A stretch of DNA of 34,192 nt, taken from positions 1 through 34,192 of the IMG/VR virus record IMGVR_UViG_3300025112_000079. One strand, 5' to 3'. A program made the translations under genes and the position numbers. This DNA comes from a virus. This document shows positions 1,172 through 17,577 of this stretch, in pieces; the stretch's first letter is position 1, and every line of letters starts with the position of its first letter. The notes beneath the pieces are model-generated. The model worked only from the letters and a program-made list of their open reading frames with translations. It had not been told where the DNA came from and did no database searches.

Positions 1172-2502
1172 TGGAGATACAGATTCCCTATACGCCACGG
1201 CCCCAGCAGCTTGATCTGCACCGGAATGACAGGCGGTTCAAGATTTGTGTGAGCCACCGGCGGTGGGGGAAGAGTGTTTATGCGGTAACGGAGTTGCTGG
1301 CCAAGGCGCTGGAGTTGAAGACCGAGCGCCGTGACGGCAGGTTCATGTATCTTGCGCCGTATTATCGTCAGGCCAAGCAAGTGGCGTGGGATTATTTGTG
1401 TTATTACGCCAAGGACTTGCCGGGCACCAAGATCAATCAGTCGGAACTCAGGGTTGATTTGATTAACGGCAGCCGTATCCGGCTGGCGGGTGCGGGGGAT
1501 GATCCCGATGCGTTGAGGGGGATTTTCCTGGACGGGGTGATTTTGGACGAATATGCCGATATGTCGCCCCGTGTGTGGTCGGAGATCATCCGGCCGAGTT
1601 TGGTTGATCGTAAGGGCTGGGCGATATTCATCGGGACGCCGAAGGGAAGAAACCATTTCTGGCGTCTTTATGAGGATGTCGGCGATGACGGTGAGTGGCA
1701 CCGGGCAATATATCGGGCGTCCGAGACGGAAGTAATCGAGCCCGACGAGCTTGCGGCTGCCAAGCGCGAGATGGGCGAGGACGAATATCTACAGGAATTT
1801 GAATGCTCGTGGACGGCTGCGATCAAGGGCAGCTACTACGGAGGGATCATAGATGACGCTGATAAGGAAGGCCGGATTTGCCGTGTGGAGTACGATGAGG
1901 AGCTGCCTGTCCATGTTGCGTGGGATTTGGGGATCAGCGATTCATGCGCTCTGTGGTTTTTTCAGGTCACTATGGGCGAAGTGCGCGTCATTGATTACTA
2001 CGAACACAACAACGTAGGGCTCGAACACTACGTCAGGATCATGCAGGAGAAGGGCTATCGGTACGGTGATGACTGGTTGCCCCACGATGCCAAGGTTCGT
2101 GAGCTTGGCACCGGCAGAACCCGCGCCGAGACGCTGATAAATATGGGCCGAAAGCCCAAGATCGTGCCCAGCCAGAAGATCGCGGATGGCATCAACGCAG
2201 CTCGGCTGTTGCTTCACCACTGTTACTTCGATGAGCTAAATTGTGAGCAAGGACTCAATGCACTCCGTTCCTATCAGAGGGAATGGGATGACGTGAAGCG
2301 CGTGTTCCGCAAGACGCCGCTCCATAATTGGGCGTCACATGCCGCTGATTCCTTTAGATATTTGGCGATTGCCTACCGTAATCTGAAGCCCAAGGAGCCG
2401 GAGTCTGACTGGCAAGAAGAAATGTTGAAGAAGCCCAGTCTTGACGACTTGTGGGGAATACACGATCTTGAGGAGCGAAATCACATGGAGCCGCGTATCT
2501 GA
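1171..2502 (+). CDS. terL: Terminase large subunit (ATPase and nuclease)
   Basis: A 443-residue packaging motor protein that hydrolyses ATP to pump DNA into the prohead and cuts it with its nuclease domain. Walker A is SHRRWGKS at residues 28-35 and Walker B is VILDEYAD at 123-130. The RNase H-like nuclease shows an Asp in AWDLGIS (D252), DYYEH (about 275-279), an Asp in LPHDAK (D305) and AADSFRY (D393). Length and motif order are normal for the family. It starts at an ATG that overlaps the small-subunit stop by one base and ends overlapping the next start by one base. Confidence 0.95.
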   Translation: MEIQIPYTPRPQQLDLHRNDRRFKICVSHRRWGKSVYAVTELLAKALELKTERRDGRFMYLAPYYRQAKQVAWDYLCYYAKDLPGTKINQSELRVDLINGSRIRLAGAGDDPDALRGIFLDGVILDEYADMSPRVWSEIIRPSLVDRKGWAIFIGTPKGRNHFWRLYEDVGDDGEWHRAIYRASETEVIEPDELAAAKREMGEDEYLQEFECSWTAAIKGSYYGGIIDDADKEGRICRVEYDEELPVHVAWDLGISDSCALWFFQVTMGEVRVIDYYEHNNVGLEHYVRIMQEKGYRYGDDWLPHDAKVRELGTGRTRAETLINMGRKPKIVPSQKIADGINAARLLLHHCYFDELNCEQGLNALRSYQREWDDVKRVFRKTPLHNWASHAADSFRYLAIAYRNLKPKEPESDWQEEMLKKPSLDDLWGIHDLEERNHMEPRI

Positions 2503-2879
2503 TGGCGATTGATTACGGCTTTGCTTCGGAAGACGCTGCCCAGATGGGCGGTGTGCTTATGGCGAAGATAACGGTGAAGACCACTGAATCGCCCGGCGAC
2601 TATAGTGGTGTTCCGGTTACCACCGAGACCGTCGAGGAAATTCCGCTGATTCCTCCAATGCAGGGGCCAGCGCCCATGATGATGCCGATGCCCCCGCCGG
2701 ATATCGGGGCCATGCCAAATCCTGGTATGCCTCCCGGTATGGCTCCTGGCGCACAAATGATGCCGCCACAGCCTGGAGCGCCGATGCCTGGGATGCCTGG
2801 GATGCCGCCCACACCGGGGGCTGGGTCAATGGGCGCGCAAGCTGCCCAGCAAGTCATGCAGCAATTTGGAACGGCGTGA
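2502..2879 (+). CDS. Pro/Met/Gly-rich small protein
   Basis: A 125-residue protein of unknown role. The first 50 residues look ordinary. Residues about 50-112 are a low-complexity run of Pro, Met, Gly and Ala with many PMPG-like units, and the end is Gln/Ala-rich. Such a region is likely disordered. It overlaps the large terminase stop by one base and is itself overlapped by the next gene through GTGA, so it belongs to the late operon and may be a minor structural or packaging-associated protein. No family recognised. Confidence 0.7.
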   Translation: MAIDYGFASEDAAQMGGVLMAKITVKTTESPGDYSGVPVTTETVEEIPLIPPMQGPAPMMMPMPPPDIGAMPNPGMPPGMAPGAQMMPPQPGAPMPGMPGMPPTPGAGSMGAQAAQQVMQQFGTA

Positions 2880-3274
2880 ATTATTGGGAAACCAAATCTC
2901 TGGAGGAGATGTCCGTCAGTGAATGGGAGTCCCTATGTGATGGATGCGGCAAATGCTGTGCGGTCAAAATCAGAAGCGCGGAAACGGAAGAGGTCTTCTA
3001 TACCGATCTTGCTTGTCATTTGCTTGATACCACTGAAATACGCTGTACCGATTATGGGCATCGCTCACAGCGCGTTCCGAATTGCGTCATATTGTCGCCG
3101 CAGTCCGTTCGTGAGTGCGATTGGCTCCCTGATCCTTGCGCGTATGCGAAATTGGCACGGGGCGAGCCGCTGGAATGGTGGCACCCCCTGGTCTCCGGTA
3201 GCGCCGACACCGTGCAGGGCGCCGGAATCTCTGTCCGTGGCAAGATAAGCGGAGCGAGCATTAGCGATGGCTGA
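2876..3274 (+). CDS. UPF0260 / YcgN-family cysteine-cluster protein
   Basis: A 132-residue protein closely matching the bacterial UPF0260 (YcgN, YkgJ-like) family. Recognisable blocks are the N-terminal YWETKSLEEMS then EWESLCDGCGKCC (Cys 21, 24, 27, 28), Cys 47, 57 and 70, DWLPDPCAY (Cys 88), and the hallmark WWHPLVSG followed by AGISVRG (residues 101-121). The family is predicted to bind zinc or iron; its biochemical role is unknown to me. Compared with cellular copies it lacks part of the usual C-terminal tail. It starts with GTG overlapping the previous stop and runs 8 bases into the portal gene, so it is fully built into the packaging/head operon, an unusual place for a cellular gene. 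Confidence 0.88.
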   Translation: MNYWETKSLEEMSVSEWESLCDGCGKCCAVKIRSAETEEVFYTDLACHLLDTTEIRCTDYGHRSQRVPNCVILSPQSVRECDWLPDPCAYAKLARGEPLEWWHPLVSGSADTVQGAGISVRGKISGASISDG

Positions 3275-5201
3275 TAAAGACGACACACGCGCTGAACAGG
3301 AAAAGCTCCTCGGCCCGTCACGCTACTGGCAGAACGAGTTAGAGCAAGCCAGCCAGTTCGAGCGCGATTGGCGTGAGCGCGGCAACCGTGTGGTGGAACG
3401 CTACCGCGACGAGCGCGGTGGGAATGCGGTTATCGGCCCGATTGCCAGCCGATTCAATATCTTGTGGGCCAATACGGAAACGCTGAAGGGCGCGCTGTTT
3501 GCTCGTATGGCGAAGCCCGATGTGCGGCGGCGGTTCCCCGATCCCAATCCCGCAGCCCGACAGGTGGCTATTCTGTTGGAGCGCACCCTTTCATACGATC
3601 TCGATACCTATGATGCCAGCAGGCCACTGAAATCGGCATTGGAAGATTACCTGTTGCCAGGACGCGGTGTGGTCTGGGTCGTTTATGAGCCGATCATCAT
3701 CAAGGAAAAGATCAAGGTCGAGGTCAAGGACGACGGTATTGATATCGTCGAGGAAGAGGAAGTAGAACACGTCGGCGATCAGCGGTGCCGTTTTGAATAC
3801 GTCCACTGGCAGGATTATCGCGAGAGCCCCAGCCGCAGACCTGAAGACGCGACATGGCGGGCGCGGCGACATCTGTTTACACGGGATGAGCTGGTAGGGC
3901 GTGGATTTGCCCATGCCTATGAGGTGCCGCTGACGTGGATGCCTGATACGGACAGCAATGAACAGTTGGACGAAATCTATAATCGGGCGGAAGTCTGGGA
4001 GATTTGGGACAAGGTCCAGCGCAAGCGTCTGTTTGTAGCGTCAGGATACAAGGATTTGCTGGCGGAGGACGATGATCCATACCAGTTGGAGGATTTCTTC
4101 CCCACTCCTGTTCCGCTGATCGCGGTGCGGACTAACAATACCTCTGTTCCTGTTCCCGAGTTTACGTTGTACCAGGATCAGGCCGATGAGCTGGACCGGG
4201 TGACAAGTCGGATCACGCATCTGATCGAGGGATTGAAGCGGCGGGGCGTCTACGATTCTTCGGTGCCGGAACTCGCTAACCTAGCAACCGCAGGAGATAA
4301 CGATTTTGTGCCGTCGGAGAATTTTTCCTCGTTAGCCCAAAAGGGTGGTCTGTCGGTTGTGTTCCAGACCGAGGATATTTCCCAGATTTCTACCGTGCTT
4401 CAGGGTCTCTATACGCAACGCGCCCAGGTTCTTCAGATCATCTACGAGGTGACGGGCATCTCGGACATCATTCGGGGTGGTGGAACCAAAGCCAGCGAGA
4501 GTGCGACCGCGCAGCAACTGAAGGCGCAATACGGATCGATGCGGCTGCGCTTACGCCAGGACGCGATTCAGAAATATATCCGTGATCTGTTCCGCATCAA
4601 GGCTGAGTTGATCGCCGAGAACTACGAGCCGGAGATTCTTGAGCGTATTACGGGGATGGAAGTCACCGATGAGATGCTTCAGATCATGCGGAACGACAAG
4701 ACCCGTCACTATCAGATAGATGTTGAGACCGACAGCACCGTATTCGCGGACGAAGAAGAGATGAAGCGGACGCGGGTGGAATTTGCCAACGTCATGGGCG
4801 GCTACCTCGTTCAGGCAATAGAGGCAACGCGGAACGCCCCAGAGCTGACGCCCATCGCATTTGAGATTCTCAAGTTTGTCTCAGGGGCATGGAAGATCGG
4901 GCGTAATTTCGAGGATGTCATAGATCAAACCGAATCCCAGGTGATGCAGCAGCTTCAGGCCATGCAGCAGCAGCCACCGCAGCCTGATCCTGAAGAACGC
5001 ATTGCCCAGCAGCGTATTGCCGCCGAGCTGGAGCGTGAGAAGCTGAAGCAAGAGGGTAAGCTGGCAGATATCACCTCACGGGAGCGCAGCAAGACTGCTG
5101 AAATCCAAGAAGAATCCCGCGCTTCGTCTGAGCGCGTCCGTTCCAAGGAAGATCTGGCAATACTTGACGCTGAGATGAAAATGATGACGGAGGGGCGATG
5201 A
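3267..5201 (+). CDS. Portal protein
   Basis: A 644-residue protein expected to form the dodecameric ring at the capsid vertex through which DNA enters and leaves. Support: position between terminase and scaffold, size, an N-terminal segment with NRVVERYRDERG and FNILWANTETLKGALFAR (about 40-80), a central region with a run of Asp/Glu (about 150-170), the VTGISDIIRGGGTKASESATAQQLKAQYG block (about 395-420) characteristic of podovirus portals, and a long Gln/Glu/Lys-rich coiled-coil C-terminus (about 550-640) like the barrel of large P22-type portals. The ATG lies inside the end of the previous gene. Confidence 0.9.
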   Translation: MADKDDTRAEQEKLLGPSRYWQNELEQASQFERDWRERGNRVVERYRDERGGNAVIGPIASRFNILWANTETLKGALFARMAKPDVRRRFPDPNPAARQVAILLERTLSYDLDTYDASRPLKSALEDYLLPGRGVVWVVYEPIIIKEKIKVEVKDDGIDIVEEEEVEHVGDQRCRFEYVHWQDYRESPSRRPEDATWRARRHLFTRDELVGRGFAHAYEVPLTWMPDTDSNEQLDEIYNRAEVWEIWDKVQRKRLFVASGYKDLLAEDDDPYQLEDFFPTPVPLIAVRTNNTSVPVPEFTLYQDQADELDRVTSRITHLIEGLKRRGVYDSSVPELANLATAGDNDFVPSENFSSLAQKGGLSVVFQTEDISQISTVLQGLYTQRAQVLQIIYEVTGISDIIRGGGTKASESATAQQLKAQYGSMRLRLRQDAIQKYIRDLFRIKAELIAENYEPEILERITGMEVTDEMLQIMRNDKTRHYQIDVETDSTVFADEEEMKRTRVEFANVMGGYLVQAIEATRNAPELTPIAFEILKFVSGAWKIGRNFEDVIDQTESQVMQQLQAMQQQPPQPDPEERIAQQRIAAELEREKLKQEGKLADITSRERSKTAEIQEESRASSERVRSKEDLAILDAEMKMMTEGR

Positions 5202-5470
5202 CCCCCGGTCACTACACTAAGAATTACGGCGACATCAAATGGTCGCGCAGGACGCGGCTGCGCCGCGTGGATGACGTGCGCCCCCAGCAGACTTTTGTCG
5301 TGATGAAGGACATAGAGCCGTTCGTCTCGCCTGTTGACGGAAAGGTTGTTGGCAGTCGTTCGTCATTGCGCGAACATGAGCGACGGCATAATGTGCGCCA
5401 GATTGGCAATGATTGGTCGGGAACGGAGCGGCCGAATAATTGGGACCAGATAAGAAATGACCGATACTGA
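5198..5470 (+). CDS. Conserved small phage protein after portal
   Basis: A 90-residue protein overlapping the portal stop by ATGA and the scaffold start by 14 bases. The segment with VVMKDIEPFVSPVDGKVVGSR, then LREHERRHNVRQIGND (about residues 34-72), follows a pattern I recall in small proteins encoded next to portals in many phages, but I know no assigned function. The histidines HERRH could bind metal. No signal peptide or membrane segment. A role in head assembly is inferred only from position. Confidence 0.7.
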   Translation: MTPGHYTKNYGDIKWSRRTRLRRVDDVRPQQTFVVMKDIEPFVSPVDGKVVGSRSSLREHERRHNVRQIGNDWSGTERPNNWDQIRNDRY

Positions 5471-6530
5471 GACTAGCACCCCGGAGTCGGGGCCAGCGTC
5501 AGAGCCAATAACTCTTGACGGTGTTTTAGAGAGTGTGATTAGCGGAGAGTTCACGGACGGCAAGCCGGAACCCACTCCCAGTGAGCCCCAACCCCTTGCC
5601 GGAGAAACAAGTGCGGAAGAAGTCGAAGTCCAGTCGGACCCATCAGACGATGCCGCCGAGGGCCATGAGGGCGCAGATGTGGAGGCCACTCCCGATAGGG
5701 AGCCAGAGCCGGATGCACTTTCTGCACCCAAGACATGGCCCGCTGAACACCGTGAGGCGTTTGAGCATCTTCCCGAAGATCAGCGGAGCTTTATGCTCCA
5801 ACGGGAGCAAGAGCGTGATGCGGCGTTCACTCGCAAGACAACTGACCTCGCAGAGCAGCGGAGACAGATAGAGAGCCTTCAAGGCGTTCTGGCACCTTAC
5901 AAGCAGCAGATGCAAGCTCACGGGATTAGCGAAGCTGAGTATGTTTCGCGTCTTATGACCTATGATAATGCGCTAAGGCAGAACCCCAAATTGGCTCTCC
6001 AAAATCTCGCCCAGCATTACGGGATTAGATTGTCTGGTGATTCGGGTGTGGATTATGTGGAGGAGACTCCAAGCGATCCGCAAATTCTTCAACTGCAACA
6101 GCAACTGAACCAGACTCAGGCTCATATCCAGACGATGCAGCAGTCGCAAGTCATGGCTCAACAGCAACAGCTTGTGGATCAGGTTGAGAGCTTCTCTACG
6201 GCAAAAGATGCCAAGGGGAATCTCAAGCATCCGCATTTTGAAAAGCTGCGTGAGCGCATGGGGCGGCTGGTAAATGCCGGAGAGACCACGGATTTGGACG
6301 AAGCCTACGGGATGGCGCTCCGCTTGGACAATGATCTCTACAATGAGGCCATTACCAATGAGCGCAATGCTGTATCCAAAAAGGAAGACGACAGGCGCAA
6401 GGCGGCTGTCCAGAAAGCCAAGAAGATACAGCCTACGCGCGGACATGGCGCACTGCCCGGTGGCTCCGTCAAGCCATCTGATCTTGATGACATTTTACGC
6501 ACTTCGATTGGATCGACTGTTTCTGGCTGA
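5457..6530 (+). CDS. Scaffold protein
   Basis: A 357-residue, very acidic protein that should guide major capsid assembly and then leave the prohead. The first 95 residues are rich in Glu, Asp, Pro and Ser and look disordered. KTWPAEHREAFEHLPEDQRSFML (about 92-114) is a block common in podovirus scaffolds. Residues about 125-260 form Gln-rich coiled coil. The C-terminus is basic (KKEDDRRKAAVQKAKK), as expected for a capsid-binding tail. The location between portal and major capsid protein fits. Confidence 0.85.
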   Translation: MTDTETSTPESGPASEPITLDGVLESVISGEFTDGKPEPTPSEPQPLAGETSAEEVEVQSDPSDDAAEGHEGADVEATPDREPEPDALSAPKTWPAEHREAFEHLPEDQRSFMLQREQERDAAFTRKTTDLAEQRRQIESLQGVLAPYKQQMQAHGISEAEYVSRLMTYDNALRQNPKLALQNLAQHYGIRLSGDSGVDYVEETPSDPQILQLQQQLNQTQAHIQTMQQSQVMAQQQQLVDQVESFSTAKDAKGNLKHPHFEKLRERMGRLVNAGETTDLDEAYGMALRLDNDLYNEAITNERNAVSKKEDDRRKAAVQKAKKIQPTRGHGALPGGSVKPSDLDDILRTSIGSTVSG

Positions 6531-6564: not shown

Positions 6565-7521
6565 ATGGCTACTTCTCCAAATAGTACCTATACGGAGATC
6601 GTGACCACGACGCTTGCTGGTTACTCCAAAAAGATGGCCGACAACGTGACCAACAACAACGCGTTGTTGCGTCACATTGACCAGAACGGGAACAAGTCTC
6701 CCGCGACGGGTCGGACCATTGTCCAGGAGCTTGAGTATGCTACGAACTCGACTACCAAGTGGTATTCGGGTTACGAGGTACTTGATACTTCGACCAGCAA
6801 CGTCTTTACCGCTGCCGAGTTCAACTACAAGCAGTTGGCGGGCAACGTGGTTATCTCCGGTCTTGAGCAGGTCGAGAATTCCGGCCCCGAGCAGATATTC
6901 AATCTGCTCAAAAGCCGTATTCGGAACCTTGAGAAATCGCTCAAGAATACGATGGCGGCTGCGCTTTATGCAGACGGCACCGGCACTGATTCCAAGGAAT
7001 TGGGTGGGTTGCAGCTATTGGTTCCAGGCACCGTGGGTAACACGGTCGGTGGGATCAACAGCACGACCTATTCGTTCTGGCAGAATCAGGTCTATGACTT
7101 CTCGACGGAAAGCGTCGCCGCTTCCGCAACCACGATCCAGACGGCCATGAACACTCTGTGGCTGGCTTGTATCCGTGGCGCGGATCGGCCAGATGTGATC
7201 GTCGGGGATACGACTTATTTCGGGTACTACTGGGCGTCTCTTCAGACGAACCAGCGGTTTACGAGCGATGAGTCGGCAGCGGCTGGATTCATGAATCTTA
7301 TGTTCATGGACGCTCCGGTGTACTACGACGATCAGTGCCCGACGACCAAGATGTACTTCCTCAACACGGACTATCTGTTCCTCAGATATGCCGATGGGCG
7401 GGAGTTCGTGCCTCTTGGTGAGAAGGCTTCTGTTAACCAGGATGCTCTTGTCATGCCTGTTGCTTGGGCCGGAAATATGGCTGTAAGCAACCGCGCACGG
7501 CAGGGTGTCATCCAAGCCTAG
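6565..7521 (+). CDS. Major capsid protein
   Basis: A 318-residue protein placed directly after the scaffold with its own 34-base leader. It starts MATSPNSTYTEIVTTTLAGY and continues with motifs seen in this capsid family (NNALLRHIDQNGN, SGYEVLDTSTSN, LKSRIRNLEKSLKNTMAAALY). Size and composition suit an HK97-fold coat protein, but the fold is inferred, not shown. The Shine-Dalgarno GGGAG (6551-6555) partly lies in the 3' arm of a small hairpin (TTGCTC 6538-6543 with GAGCAA 6553-6558), which might tune expression. Confidence 0.88.
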   Translation: MATSPNSTYTEIVTTTLAGYSKKMADNVTNNNALLRHIDQNGNKSPATGRTIVQELEYATNSTTKWYSGYEVLDTSTSNVFTAAEFNYKQLAGNVVISGLEQVENSGPEQIFNLLKSRIRNLEKSLKNTMAAALYADGTGTDSKELGGLQLLVPGTVGNTVGGINSTTYSFWQNQVYDFSTESVAASATTIQTAMNTLWLACIRGADRPDVIVGDTTYFGYYWASLQTNQRFTSDESAAAGFMNLMFMDAPVYYDDQCPTTKMYFLNTDYLFLRYADGREFVPLGEKASVNQDALVMPVAWAGNMAVSNRARQGVIQA

Positions 7522-13466: not shown

Positions 13467-15041
13467 ATGATTTCCTTCATTGCCGATCCGCGCATCGCAC
13501 AGTCCCAAGCACAGCGCCGGGACATGATGGCGCAGGCTTTGACGCCTTATCAGTTGCCCCGCAACCCTTATGGCGGGAGTCCGGTGGCGGGGAATCTCCA
13601 AAGGCTGGCCGCTGCACTGGGCGCACGATGGGCGGGCCAGGACGCTAGTAGGCTTCAAGCGCAACAACAGAAAGCGCAAGCTAAGGTTTTAAGCGGCGTT
13701 TATGGGGCGGCCCTCCCTAAATCAGGGCCGTTTTATGAAACAGTCGATACCATGAGTCTTGGGACTTTTCCTGGGACTAGAGAGGCTCAGACTCAGATTC
13801 AGCGGATAGCTGATGACGGGAGCGTTCTTCCTCCAGAGATTAGCGCGGAAACCGCCCGCACCGCAGGAATCGATCCTTTGACGCTGAAGACTCTTATGGA
13901 CGATGCAAAGCGGACGGGCAAGGTGGCTACCCAAGAGGCTATTAAGAGAGAAGCCCTGAAGGGGTTTCGACAGGCGGTTAGCGATCTTACGAGGGCTAAT
14001 GAGAGGGGAACTCTTGAAGAGCAAGCTGCTGCTCGGAATATAGTGGCTCAGTGGCAAGCAATAACCGATCCTTCGGCAGCTTATGGGGATATACAAGCAC
14101 AGGATCAATTACAAGCTAGAATAGAGCGAGATCGTGAGAAAGAAGAGCGAGAGGAAATAAAGAGGTGGACGACAGCGGGCCAACAGATATGGATACCTAA
14201 AGGAGTATGGCGAGAGGATCAGAATCGTCCTGAATCTGAACAGCTATATACTAACGAACCGCCAGAGAAACCAGACAAACCGATGAGTGTGCGGCTTGTC
14301 AATCCCGTCAATGGCATCACGCATACATATGTTATGCCAAAACAATTGGCGGAAGATATGCTACTGCCTCTGGAAAAACGACAATTCACGCCCCCACAAG
14401 GGGTTTCAATTGGCCCAGATGGTAATCTTATATTTACAGGAGTGTCCAAGGCAGCGCGTGAAGAAGCGGTAGAGTATTCGATTGACCTTGGCTTTAAGTC
14501 AGCAGCAGCTTCGCAATTATTAAAGAATGTAATGGATAATCCTGGCCTTGCAGGATTAAGAGGTAGGTTCGCAGATTATGTCGGTGGTTGGTTGGGCCTA
14601 GCAAGTCCAAAAATGGGAGAGGTTTTCACGGAGTTTGTAGCGGGGGCTTCTCCTGAGGAATTAGCTGCCTTTAAGGTTGAGGGGAACGCATTGATAGCTG
14701 GTTTAATAACAGAAATGGCTGGGGAGGAAAGTGGGAGATTTTCTGGGCCAGAAAGAGATATTACTAAAGAGGCTCTAAGAGTTTTTCAGGTGGAAACTTC
14801 TCCTGCATTACTAGAAGGCGCGCTTAGAAGCGCACTGAAGTCTTATGCTGTTCATGCGGCAAAGGCCAGTTATATAGCGCGTAGGAGATATAGGATAGAT
14901 GATAAAGAATGGCTTGTTCCATATGTAAAAAGTCTATTTGGTATGGGGCTAAATGAAGAAAATGTTAAGAGTGTTCTTGCCTCTATAAAACTTGCTCATC
15001 AGATTATGGATACAGCTCCCCAAGCTGTAACAAAGCAATAA
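13467..15041 (+). CDS. Candidate ejection (internal virion) protein, 524 aa
   Basis: A largely helical 524-residue protein, start MISFIADPRI. The ATG at 13467 is preferred to earlier in-frame starts because those lie inside the previous gene. A charged coiled-coil stretch (LQARIERDREKEEREEIKRW) lies mid-protein. No enzyme motif is visible. In podoviruses two or three large helical proteins between tail hub and fibre form the DNA-ejection channel, and position and composition fit that. From about base 13690 the sequence is markedly AT-richer than the earlier operon. Confidence 0.6.
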   Translation: MISFIADPRIAQSQAQRRDMMAQALTPYQLPRNPYGGSPVAGNLQRLAAALGARWAGQDASRLQAQQQKAQAKVLSGVYGAALPKSGPFYETVDTMSLGTFPGTREAQTQIQRIADDGSVLPPEISAETARTAGIDPLTLKTLMDDAKRTGKVATQEAIKREALKGFRQAVSDLTRANERGTLEEQAAARNIVAQWQAITDPSAAYGDIQAQDQLQARIERDREKEEREEIKRWTTAGQQIWIPKGVWREDQNRPESEQLYTNEPPEKPDKPMSVRLVNPVNGITHTYVMPKQLAEDMLLPLEKRQFTPPQGVSIGPDGNLIFTGVSKAAREEAVEYSIDLGFKSAAASQLLKNVMDNPGLAGLRGRFADYVGGWLGLASPKMGEVFTEFVAGASPEELAAFKVEGNALIAGLITEMAGEESGRFSGPERDITKEALRVFQVETSPALLEGALRSALKSYAVHAAKASYIARRRYRIDDKEWLVPYVKSLFGMGLNEENVKSVLASIKLAHQIMDTAPQAVTKQ

Positions 15042-15042
15042 A

Positions 15043-17577
15043 ATGGCCGAACTTCAAACCTCTGCTGAGAGCATTGTCGATGACTTCTTGAATCCAGAGA
15101 ATAATGATTCTAATGATAGTGATGCTGCGCGAAGAGTAGTTGATGAATTTCTAACAGGGCAATCAGGCGGTGCTTCAGAGCAAGAATTTATTTTAGGAGA
15201 AAAGCTGGGAGGGGGTATTCGTGCCGGATTAGCCTTTTGGGGTGATACCGCTGCGGAGAAGTATCGTCATTTTAAGGAATCATATCCCCAAGGCGAAATC
15301 GCCCGCAATCCAGACGACGGCGAACTTTATTACCGTAAAACACCTGAAGGGCCGTTCAATAAAATTGATCCCAATATGTTTACTGATCCTGGGGGATGGA
15401 GTGATCTCCCTTCGGATGTACTGGAATTTGGCGCACAGGAAGGTCCGACACTTCTTGGAGAGGCAGCGGCATTTCTTGCAGTTAGGAGGCCGCCTGTAGC
15501 TGCTGCTGATATGGCACGAACTCTTTTAGGCAGGGTATTGGGGGGTATAAGAACGCGCCCATCTGCCTTTGGAGAAAGGGCTTCTTGGTTGGAGAATACA
15601 GGCAGGGCCGCTCTTGGGGCGGGAGCGGGGGAGATGTCCCGACAGCTTGCTCAAACTCTTGGAGGAACCCAGCGGGAAACAACTGGTCAGCAGCTTGGCC
15701 GTGCGGGGGAAATGAGTGTTTATGCCGGTCTTGGAGAACTTGCTGCTAAACCAATTATTAAGGGCATTGGGGCAATTAGAGGTATTCCATTAGCGAGACT
15801 CAGAGAGGGTGTTGATCCAGCTCTCGCGGTAGCAAAACGATTTCGGCTTCCCCATCTCACACCTGGGCAAACAGTGGTAAATCCCATTTTGGCCCGTTTG
15901 GAAAGAATGGGCAGAACCATGTCCACCAAAATGATTACTCATTTTGAGGATCAGATAGAGAGCGCACGCAAGGTGTGGGGCTCTCTTGTTAATTCTGGTG
16001 CCAATCCAAATACTATTACCGCCAATATAAAGCGGGCGGTGGATAACGCCGAGTCTGCTATTTATAGACGGGCGAATGTGCGATGGAAAAGTCTTGATTC
16101 AGCCAGAACTGGTGAAGCAATCGTAGCTGGAGTTATGAAGTGGGATGAGTTAGCTAGGAAATCAATAAACAGGCTTTACAGCCGCGCCCGATCAGCGGAA
16201 ACCCCCACTTATGATATTTCAAATCTGAAAACCCTTGCTAATGATGTTCGTGAGGGAGTGCGGTACAGCGCACCTCCAGAAGAGATTGCTACCGGATTAC
16301 TCGATGTCTCGGGGGCTCCAATTACGAGAGAAGTGGCGCGAGATAGACGTTTAGGGCAACAGCTTAATCAGGCAGTCAGAGAAGTTGTCGAGACTGTAAA
16401 AAACTTAAATCCAGATTTACCGAGTGTCACCCATGCGGGTGGCCGCATTGATGATGCGACGGAACAGCTAAAGGAGCTTCGCCAGCAACTCTGGGATATT
16501 AAAACACCCGCTCCAGGGGATGTGCTACGCCAAGAGCATAGGGATGCGGCGCGTCTGTATGGCGCAATAAGCAAGGTGATGAACAATCCTATTCTTGATA
16601 CAGAGGATGGGGCAAAGCTATGGCAAGAGGCGGCTCAAGAAGCATCAGATCGGTTTATGAAGCTGGATAAAGCAATACTGATGCAAGTGCTTAAAACGGA
16701 TGTGAGAGGAGGGGCCAGCGACCTGGCTCGTTCAATTATAGCTAGGGGGAATCAAAGTGATTTAGAGGATTTGAAGGATGTTCTGCCGGGAATCCGATTC
16801 ATGGACATCTCTAACTTCGCGGCTAGAGAGATTTTTGACAATCCCGCTCTTCTCAAAACGATGGACAGAGATGTTCTAAAAACTCTTTTCCGCCAATCAG
16901 ACTTGGATAACATCAGGGGAATTGTTGACGATTTTGAGAGAATCAGAACAGTAGGCGCGGACCTCTCCAAGAGGTTTGCTGATAATACCAACCAACGAAA
17001 AGGGCTAACACAGTTCTTGTTAGGGGCAACTCCCCGTCAAACAGAAGATTTTATCGAGACAATTAGCTCGCACCCAGAATCAATAGATTTAATCAGGCAA
17101 ACAGTTTTAGATGGGATGGCGGAATCAGCTATAGTCAGAGATAGCTTTGATCCCGCAACATTTCTTAGTAATTATTATAAAATGGATGATTCCGGCCTTT
17201 TCCGTGAAGGGGCATTATGGACAAGCGATCAACTGCAAAATATCAAGGACTTGAGTCGATATATAGAAGTATCTTCTGGACTCAGTAAGTCTCAGATACA
17301 GGATGCGGGCACAAGTCTTATGGCAGCGGAGGCGGTATCGCCAACGGCTTTGGCTACTCAGGGATTGAGTGCGCTTCCTGGGATGCTCCACAAAGTATTG
17401 TTAATCGGTGGGTTTGGTAGATTATTAACAAGCCCTGCATTTTCAAGAATTGTTAGAGGGCGGCATAGGCGCTCTCCTGGCCCTGGAAGAGCGAGATGGG
17501 ATTCCGATTTCTTACGCGGAATTAGTGCTGCTCTTGCCGCTGATATAGGGCGATCATCTGAAGAGGAGACTGAATAA
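15043..17577 (+). CDS. Candidate large ejection (internal virion) protein, 844 aa
   Basis: The largest protein in the window. The N-terminus is acidic (residues 1-50). Residues about 65-115 hold DTAAEKYRHFKESYPQGEIA and YYRKTPEGPFNKIDPNMF, a block I associate with large phage internal proteins. Two Ala/Gly-rich hydrophobic stretches at about 130-165 and 185-240 could help membrane insertion. The rest is long helical sequence, ending with a hydrophobic patch and a basic tail (RGRHRRS). No lytic transglycosylase motif was found. AT-rich codon use contrasts with the tail fibre gene that begins at its stop. Confidence 0.65.
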   Translation: MAELQTSAESIVDDFLNPENNDSNDSDAARRVVDEFLTGQSGGASEQEFILGEKLGGGIRAGLAFWGDTAAEKYRHFKESYPQGEIARNPDDGELYYRKTPEGPFNKIDPNMFTDPGGWSDLPSDVLEFGAQEGPTLLGEAAAFLAVRRPPVAAADMARTLLGRVLGGIRTRPSAFGERASWLENTGRAALGAGAGEMSRQLAQTLGGTQRETTGQQLGRAGEMSVYAGLGELAAKPIIKGIGAIRGIPLARLREGVDPALAVAKRFRLPHLTPGQTVVNPILARLERMGRTMSTKMITHFEDQIESARKVWGSLVNSGANPNTITANIKRAVDNAESAIYRRANVRWKSLDSARTGEAIVAGVMKWDELARKSINRLYSRARSAETPTYDISNLKTLANDVREGVRYSAPPEEIATGLLDVSGAPITREVARDRRLGQQLNQAVREVVETVKNLNPDLPSVTHAGGRIDDATEQLKELRQQLWDIKTPAPGDVLRQEHRDAARLYGAISKVMNNPILDTEDGAKLWQEAAQEASDRFMKLDKAILMQVLKTDVRGGASDLARSIIARGNQSDLEDLKDVLPGIRFMDISNFAAREIFDNPALLKTMDRDVLKTLFRQSDLDNIRGIVDDFERIRTVGADLSKRFADNTNQRKGLTQFLLGATPRQTEDFIETISSHPESIDLIRQTVLDGMAESAIVRDSFDPATFLSNYYKMDDSGLFREGALWTSDQLQNIKDLSRYIEVSSGLSKSQIQDAGTSLMAAEAVSPTALATQGLSALPGMLHKVLLIGGFGRLLTSPAFSRIVRGRHRRSPGPGRARWDSDFLRGISAALAADIGRSSEEETE

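Follow-up and report, generated by a model that had tools for sequence, protein, structure and literature searches.

Proteins of the YcgN/UPF0260 family (NF003501, COG2983) are widespread but little understood, and no functional or biochemical study of YcgN, UPF0260 or COG2983 was found in a literature search. A functional lead is provided by FliB (NF038110), in which a CX4CX3CC motif holds a [4Fe-4S] cluster that is needed for lysine methylation of flagellin, and for which the domain PF03692 has been cited (PMC8598068). FliB and YcgN have PF03692 in common, together with a total of eight conserved cysteines that start with a C-C-CC pattern, but FliB comprises about 400 amino acids and contains an extra region. 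Phage proteins of the YkgJ type, or annotated as "zinc- or iron-chelating domain" proteins (ORF 123 of vibriophage R21Y; uncultured Caudovirales), carry the same broad Pfam-type domain annotation, but are linked to YcgN by weak structural matches only.

The window analyzed here is a stretch of 34,192 nucleotides that spans the IMG/VR virus record IMGVR_UViG_3300025112_000079. It resembles the Mx8-like phages (Mx8, Mx9, BUCT555 and ppBjS10J-1), with which it shares 28–30% identity in the portal protein and 42–48% in the capsid protein. In the three of these that were inspected (Mx8, BUCT555 and ppBjS10J-1) terL abuts the portal gene directly and ycgN is absent, whereas the window harbors a ycgN gene between these two positions. 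A phage copy of this kind may offer an entry to the function of the family.

The ycgN gene within the head operon

Profile searches confirmed that the predicted product of positions 2876–3274 (plus strand, GTG start, 132 amino acids) is a true YcgN/UPF0260 protein. Its match to NF003501 (E = 6.9e-56, 188.2 bits) exceeds the curated cut-off of 167 and lies far above chance, so that the family assignment made in the preliminary description was upheld. PF03692, the CxxCxxCC domain, is placed at 2936–3142 on the plus strand with 32.7 bits (1.3e-7; gathering cut-off 23), and PHROG 33999, an entry without an attached function, covers nearly all of the protein (1.8e-38). Cysteines 21, 24, 27, 28, 47, 57, 70 and 88 are invariant among 38 aligned phage and bacterial sequences. 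The phage and the cellular proteins share the core fold, these eight cysteines and the motifs CDGCGKCC, DWLP-CAY and WWHPL. They differ in that the phage gene is part of a head operon and that its product lacks an ordered C-terminal helix and strand.

All genes of this operon are located on the plus strand, in the order terS, terL, a Pro/Met-rich ORF, ycgN, portal, two more ORFs and major capsid protein. The terminase small subunit is encoded at 722–1171 (phrog_309, 1.4e-12) and the large subunit at 1171–2502 (PF03237, 2e-8; phrog_2, 1.7e-45). The Pro/Met-rich ORF at 2502–2879, which has no family match in Pfam or PHROG, overlaps the end of terL and is also retained in relatives that lack ycgN. 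A portal protein of the P22 type follows ycgN at 3267–5201 (PF16510, 3e-7; phrog_12082, 4.1e-149). The ORF at 5457–6530 is without a significant match in Pfam or PHROG and occupies the usual place of a scaffold gene, an assignment by position in an order that is conserved in relatives. The major capsid protein is encoded at 6565–7521 (phrog_9953, 2.5e-95).

The start of ycgN overlaps the stop of the Pro/Met-rich ORF by the four bases GTGA (2876–2879), and its stop overlaps the portal start by the eight bases ATGGCTGA (3267–3274), which code for the C-terminal Asp-Gly. Thus, the overlaps on both sides that were described before are present, but the gene does not adjoin the terminase directly, as the Pro/Met-rich ORF intervenes. 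In all 26 readable loci of the lineage, ycgN overlaps the following gene by 8 bases, both where the portal gene comes next and where an ORF has been inserted. Together with the family match, the conserved gene order bears out the view that a gene of a cellular family has been built into the terminase–portal operon.

About 40 IMG/VR contigs show the arrangement terS–terL–(Pro/Met-rich ORF)–ycgN–portal, in some cases with one or two additional ORFs ahead of the portal. Three of them (L006, L007 and L008), each from another metagenome, show an order identical to that of the window at 99–100% identity, and about 37 further contigs carry the same order in a diverged form. GC content is even across the ycgN region of the window. 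The recurrence in independent metagenomes and the even GC content rule out a chimeric assembly, which the preliminary description had named as a possible objection. No tRNA that could serve as a clue to the host was found in the window.

Accessory status and descent of phage ycgN

In scans run with baits other than ycgN, 14 contigs had a readable slot and a portal of 68% identity or more; nine of these harbor ycgN and five do not. The relatives without the gene have portals that are 68–76% identical and an otherwise unchanged operon, and presence and absence of ycgN on the portal tree require four changes. More distant relatives contain other small ORFs, or nothing, in the slot. Hence ycgN is an accessory gene in this lineage. 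Since five of the 14 close relatives and the cultured relatives do without the gene, its product cannot form a core part of the head.

The gene occupies the same slot in all lineage contigs, which agrees in part with the idea that it always sits beside the portal; in eight contigs, however, one or two additional ORFs separate the two genes. The first inserted ORF begins at a ATGGCTGA-type overlap wherever it could be read. The inserts (L010 3585–3980, L011 5814–6239, L021 2893–3369, L190 3197–3895, L184 2117–2542, L231 191–1156 and L100 105–494) are different ORFs that all start with MAD or MAE and all keep the 8-base overlap, as though recombination took place at the start site. Variable ORFs also occur between terS and terL in relatives (L014 6988–8346, L015 1614–3732, L189 2538–3731 and L010 604–1440); judged by eye, some resemble fusions of ParB and a DNA methylase and one a trypsin-like protease.

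The lowest identity among representatives is 51% for ycgN, 66% for the portal and 90% for the capsid protein. Median dN/dS is 0.21 for ycgN (48 pairs), 0.05 for the portal, 0.05 for the major capsid protein and 0.07 for terL. Phage ycgN is under purifying selection. Its distances correlate with those of the portal (Mantel r 0.81), and none of 2000 permutations reached an equally high value.

The relationship to cellular copies was analyzed in unrooted trees, with bacterial YcgN sequences taken from class samples; a scan of genome contigs yielded three relatives. In a careful tree of 124 rows, the 23 phage rows grouped together (support 93/85) with one long-branched bacterial row inside (L273), which is flanked by ordinary bacterial genes. 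In a quick tree of 96 rows, a branch with an SH-aLRT value of 88 separated the phage copies from the other rows. The phage clade considered in the preliminary description is therefore seen in that the phage copies cluster, but the tree is weakly resolved and the larger one admits a bacterial row. A single capture of ycgN from a bacterium would be the simplest reading of these weakly supported, unrooted trees.

Copies of ycgN beside RcGTA-type clusters and in other records

A wider scan identified 80 viral relatives. These comprise 39 members of the lineage, 20 contigs assigned to the RcGTA type because they matched RcGTA-type genes (L233 only through a weak partial terL match), 13 contigs that start no more than 17 bases before the ycgN match, and eight that were left unsorted. 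In 18 IMG/VR contigs ycgN is located directly upstream, on the same strand, of a terS-like ORF (in most of them), terL, portal and head genes; two of the RcGTA-type contigs were read further and continue with connector and tail genes in RcGTA order. These loci encode a phrog_12 portal and a phrog_10 capsid protein, in contrast to the P22-type phrog_12082 portal and phrog_9953 capsid protein of the window. An assignment of the window itself to the RcGTA clusters was rejected on account of these different portal and capsid families.

The same neighborhood exists in bacterial chromosomes. A sample of 240 alphaproteobacterial genomes included 24 with both ycgN and an RcGTA-type terL. In eight of them the genes are adjacent (within 0.8 kb, same strand), in one more they are 3 kb apart, and in about 15 they are unlinked. 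The L330 chromosome harbors a full RcGTA cluster with GTA_TIM and Rcc01698_C and with ycgN just upstream (ycgN 16681–17145, terL 14740–16059, ORF with GTA_TIM 1558–5541, all on the minus strand). Further loci of this type were seen in L194, L195, L198–L200, L205–L207, L209–L214, L216, L221, L223, L227, L292, L293, L295 and L306. The adjacency is far more frequent than random placement would give, but as the genomes are related to each other it may represent one inherited location. Due to a gap before the terS-like ORF, which is present in most loci and often measures 110–190 bases, ycgN probably lies outside the GTA transcript. In the parts of the GTA literature that were searched, no mention of ycgN beside the cluster was found. 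Several GTA-flanking genes are among the bacterial and contig copies closest to phage YcgN. An RcGTA-adjacent gene may have been the route of capture by the phage, a point that the tree does not settle.

Several other viral records were not accepted as phage examples. The 13 contigs that start 10–17 bases before the ycgN match (L215, L219, L222, L226, L228, L230, L232, L234, L236–L239 and L241) are likely provirus edges in host DNA and not phage genes, which suggests that provirus boundaries had been called at ycgN. In the 133-kb record of Acinetobacter phage MD-2021a (L004, CAKLQH020000008.1) the gene lies in a stretch that reads as bacterial chromosome, as indicated by mutY, purC and dapA. 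OR845894, an unverified contig of 1.5 kb, was excluded as evidence. Vibrio phage 10N.222.45.E8_PE001 (L002, 5618–6568) was set aside, as ycgN occurs there beside a UPF0153 gene of host type; the integrase of a P2-like element is close by, and the two genes are probably host flank or an acquired host pair.

C-terminal tail and candidate role of phage YcgN

The short C-terminus noted in the preliminary description was borne out. By a simple motif search, in which 10 phage rows received no score and seven others a value of 1, phage copies contain 10 residues after SVRG (26 loci) compared to 20–41 in bacteria. The full-length segment is typical of cellular YcgN and is not required by the NF003501 cut-off. 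The reduced length is likely due to the overlap of 8 bases with the following gene, which fixes the end of the protein. AlphaFold models show an identical order of core secondary-structure elements in phage and bacterial YcgN. The window protein was predicted with a mean pLDDT of 88.9 and a low-confidence tail. The model of bacterial YcgN L246 (pLDDT 91.1) displays an ordered strand and helix (132–138, pLDDT about 95) in the part that the phage copy lacks. To judge from these models, loss of the ordered helix could have changed the function of the protein. Neither a sequence search nor a search with the predicted fold returned a solved structure significantly similar to YcgN, and a viral fold library gave only weak matches to the model.

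A link to FliB is seen in the domain and the cysteines. PF03692 matched three of five scanned FliB homologs, two of them above the cut-off (best 2.7e-7), and eight cysteines are invariant in ten aligned FliB proteins. The FliB family NF038110 gave no hit to the window and did not come up in the NCBIfam scan, and a direct profile comparison by hhalign was not significant (probability 0.9%), although both proteins match PF03692; YcgN was accordingly not classified as a FliB. From the cysteine pattern of the family, and from the PF03692 domain and cysteine count shared with FliB, we infer that YcgN may bind a metal or an Fe-S cluster.

In the explanation that we propose, ycgN would have been captured once from a bacterium into the slot between the pair of terL and Pro/Met-rich ORF and the portal. 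The phage protein lacks at least the final 10 residues of its cellular counterpart, and its gene, which is coupled to the next one by the 8-base overlap, would be translated late, along with the head genes. Phage YcgN is envisaged as a small, soluble, cytoplasmic protein and not as a structural part of the virion, with eight cysteines that might bind an Fe-S cluster or another metal as in FliB. It would carry out the chemistry of host YcgN, or add to it, late in infection after the shutdown of host genes; the leading guess is that it modifies some protein produced in large amounts at this stage or gives it redox protection. We see an even chance that this account of a trimmed, late-expressed, host-derived cysteine-cluster protein, which performs or supplements host chemistry as a cytoplasmic accessory, is correct as a whole.

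Position and overlap could also mean that YcgN serves the portal, terminase or capsid as a FliB-like modification factor or chaperone, and that its translation is coupled to the portal for this reason. The gene keeps its slot in all lineage contigs, and FliB, also a PF03692 protein, modifies a protein that assembles into filaments (PMC8598068). However, relatives with 68–76% identical portals manage without ycgN, the overlap is equally kept with unrelated ORFs that part ycgN from the portal, and, measured against synonymous change, ycgN evolves about fourfold faster than the portal and capsid genes. We therefore consider such a head factor unlikely. A role in head assembly, as suggested in the preliminary description, is possible but disfavored relative to a cytoplasmic accessory role because ycgN is absent in close relatives. 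The host takeover proposed there could take the form of a dominant-negative decoy, a trimmed YcgN that would bind the partner of the host protein without the C-terminal element. This would fit the tail of 10 residues versus 20–41 and the missing segment, which in the bacterial model is ordered and includes a helix, whereas the phage tail is of low confidence. Yet the phage protein retains the core motifs along with the eight cysteines, which points to preserved active chemistry, and the trimming may simply follow because ycgN overlaps the start codon of the next gene; a decoy thus appears quite unlikely.

The RcGTA-type loci raise the idea of an older tie of YcgN to DNA packaging or gene transfer, seen twice, in the phage operon and beside the RcGTA-type terS–terL cluster. 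It draws on the 18 contigs and eight of 24 genomes with ycgN upstream on the same strand, on the full cluster in the L330 chromosome and on the GTA-flanking position of several nearest copies. On the other hand, about 15 of the 24 genomes show no linkage, the gap in most loci makes it probable that the GTA transcript does not include ycgN, the repetition is explained by shared vertical inheritance of a single locus, and the gene is common in Gammaproteobacteria. We judge such a tie improbable. The more specific proposal of an Fe-S protein for phage-type head assembly or DNA loading, present in the lineage by capture and in alphaproteobacterial GTAs via the neighboring copy, seems very improbable. 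That ycgN is a chance passenger, finally, would agree with the variable slot and its absence from some branches, but the reading frame and all eight cysteines have been maintained, with dN/dS close to 0.2, while identity dropped to 51%; neutral cargo is a far-fetched reading of these data. A trimmed copy kept under selection suggests that the essential part of YcgN is the eight-cysteine core and that it is probably used late in infection. The link to RcGTA clusters in cells provides a second, simple genetic handle on the function.

In the genomes sampled, ycgN was present in 126 of 274 Gammaproteobacteria and 98 of 240 Alphaproteobacteria. A search for conserved neighbors as a clue to function revealed none that recur often in Gammaproteobacteria; in Alphaproteobacteria a transglycosylase, YgjP and a PHB depolymerase recur beside a minority of the copies.
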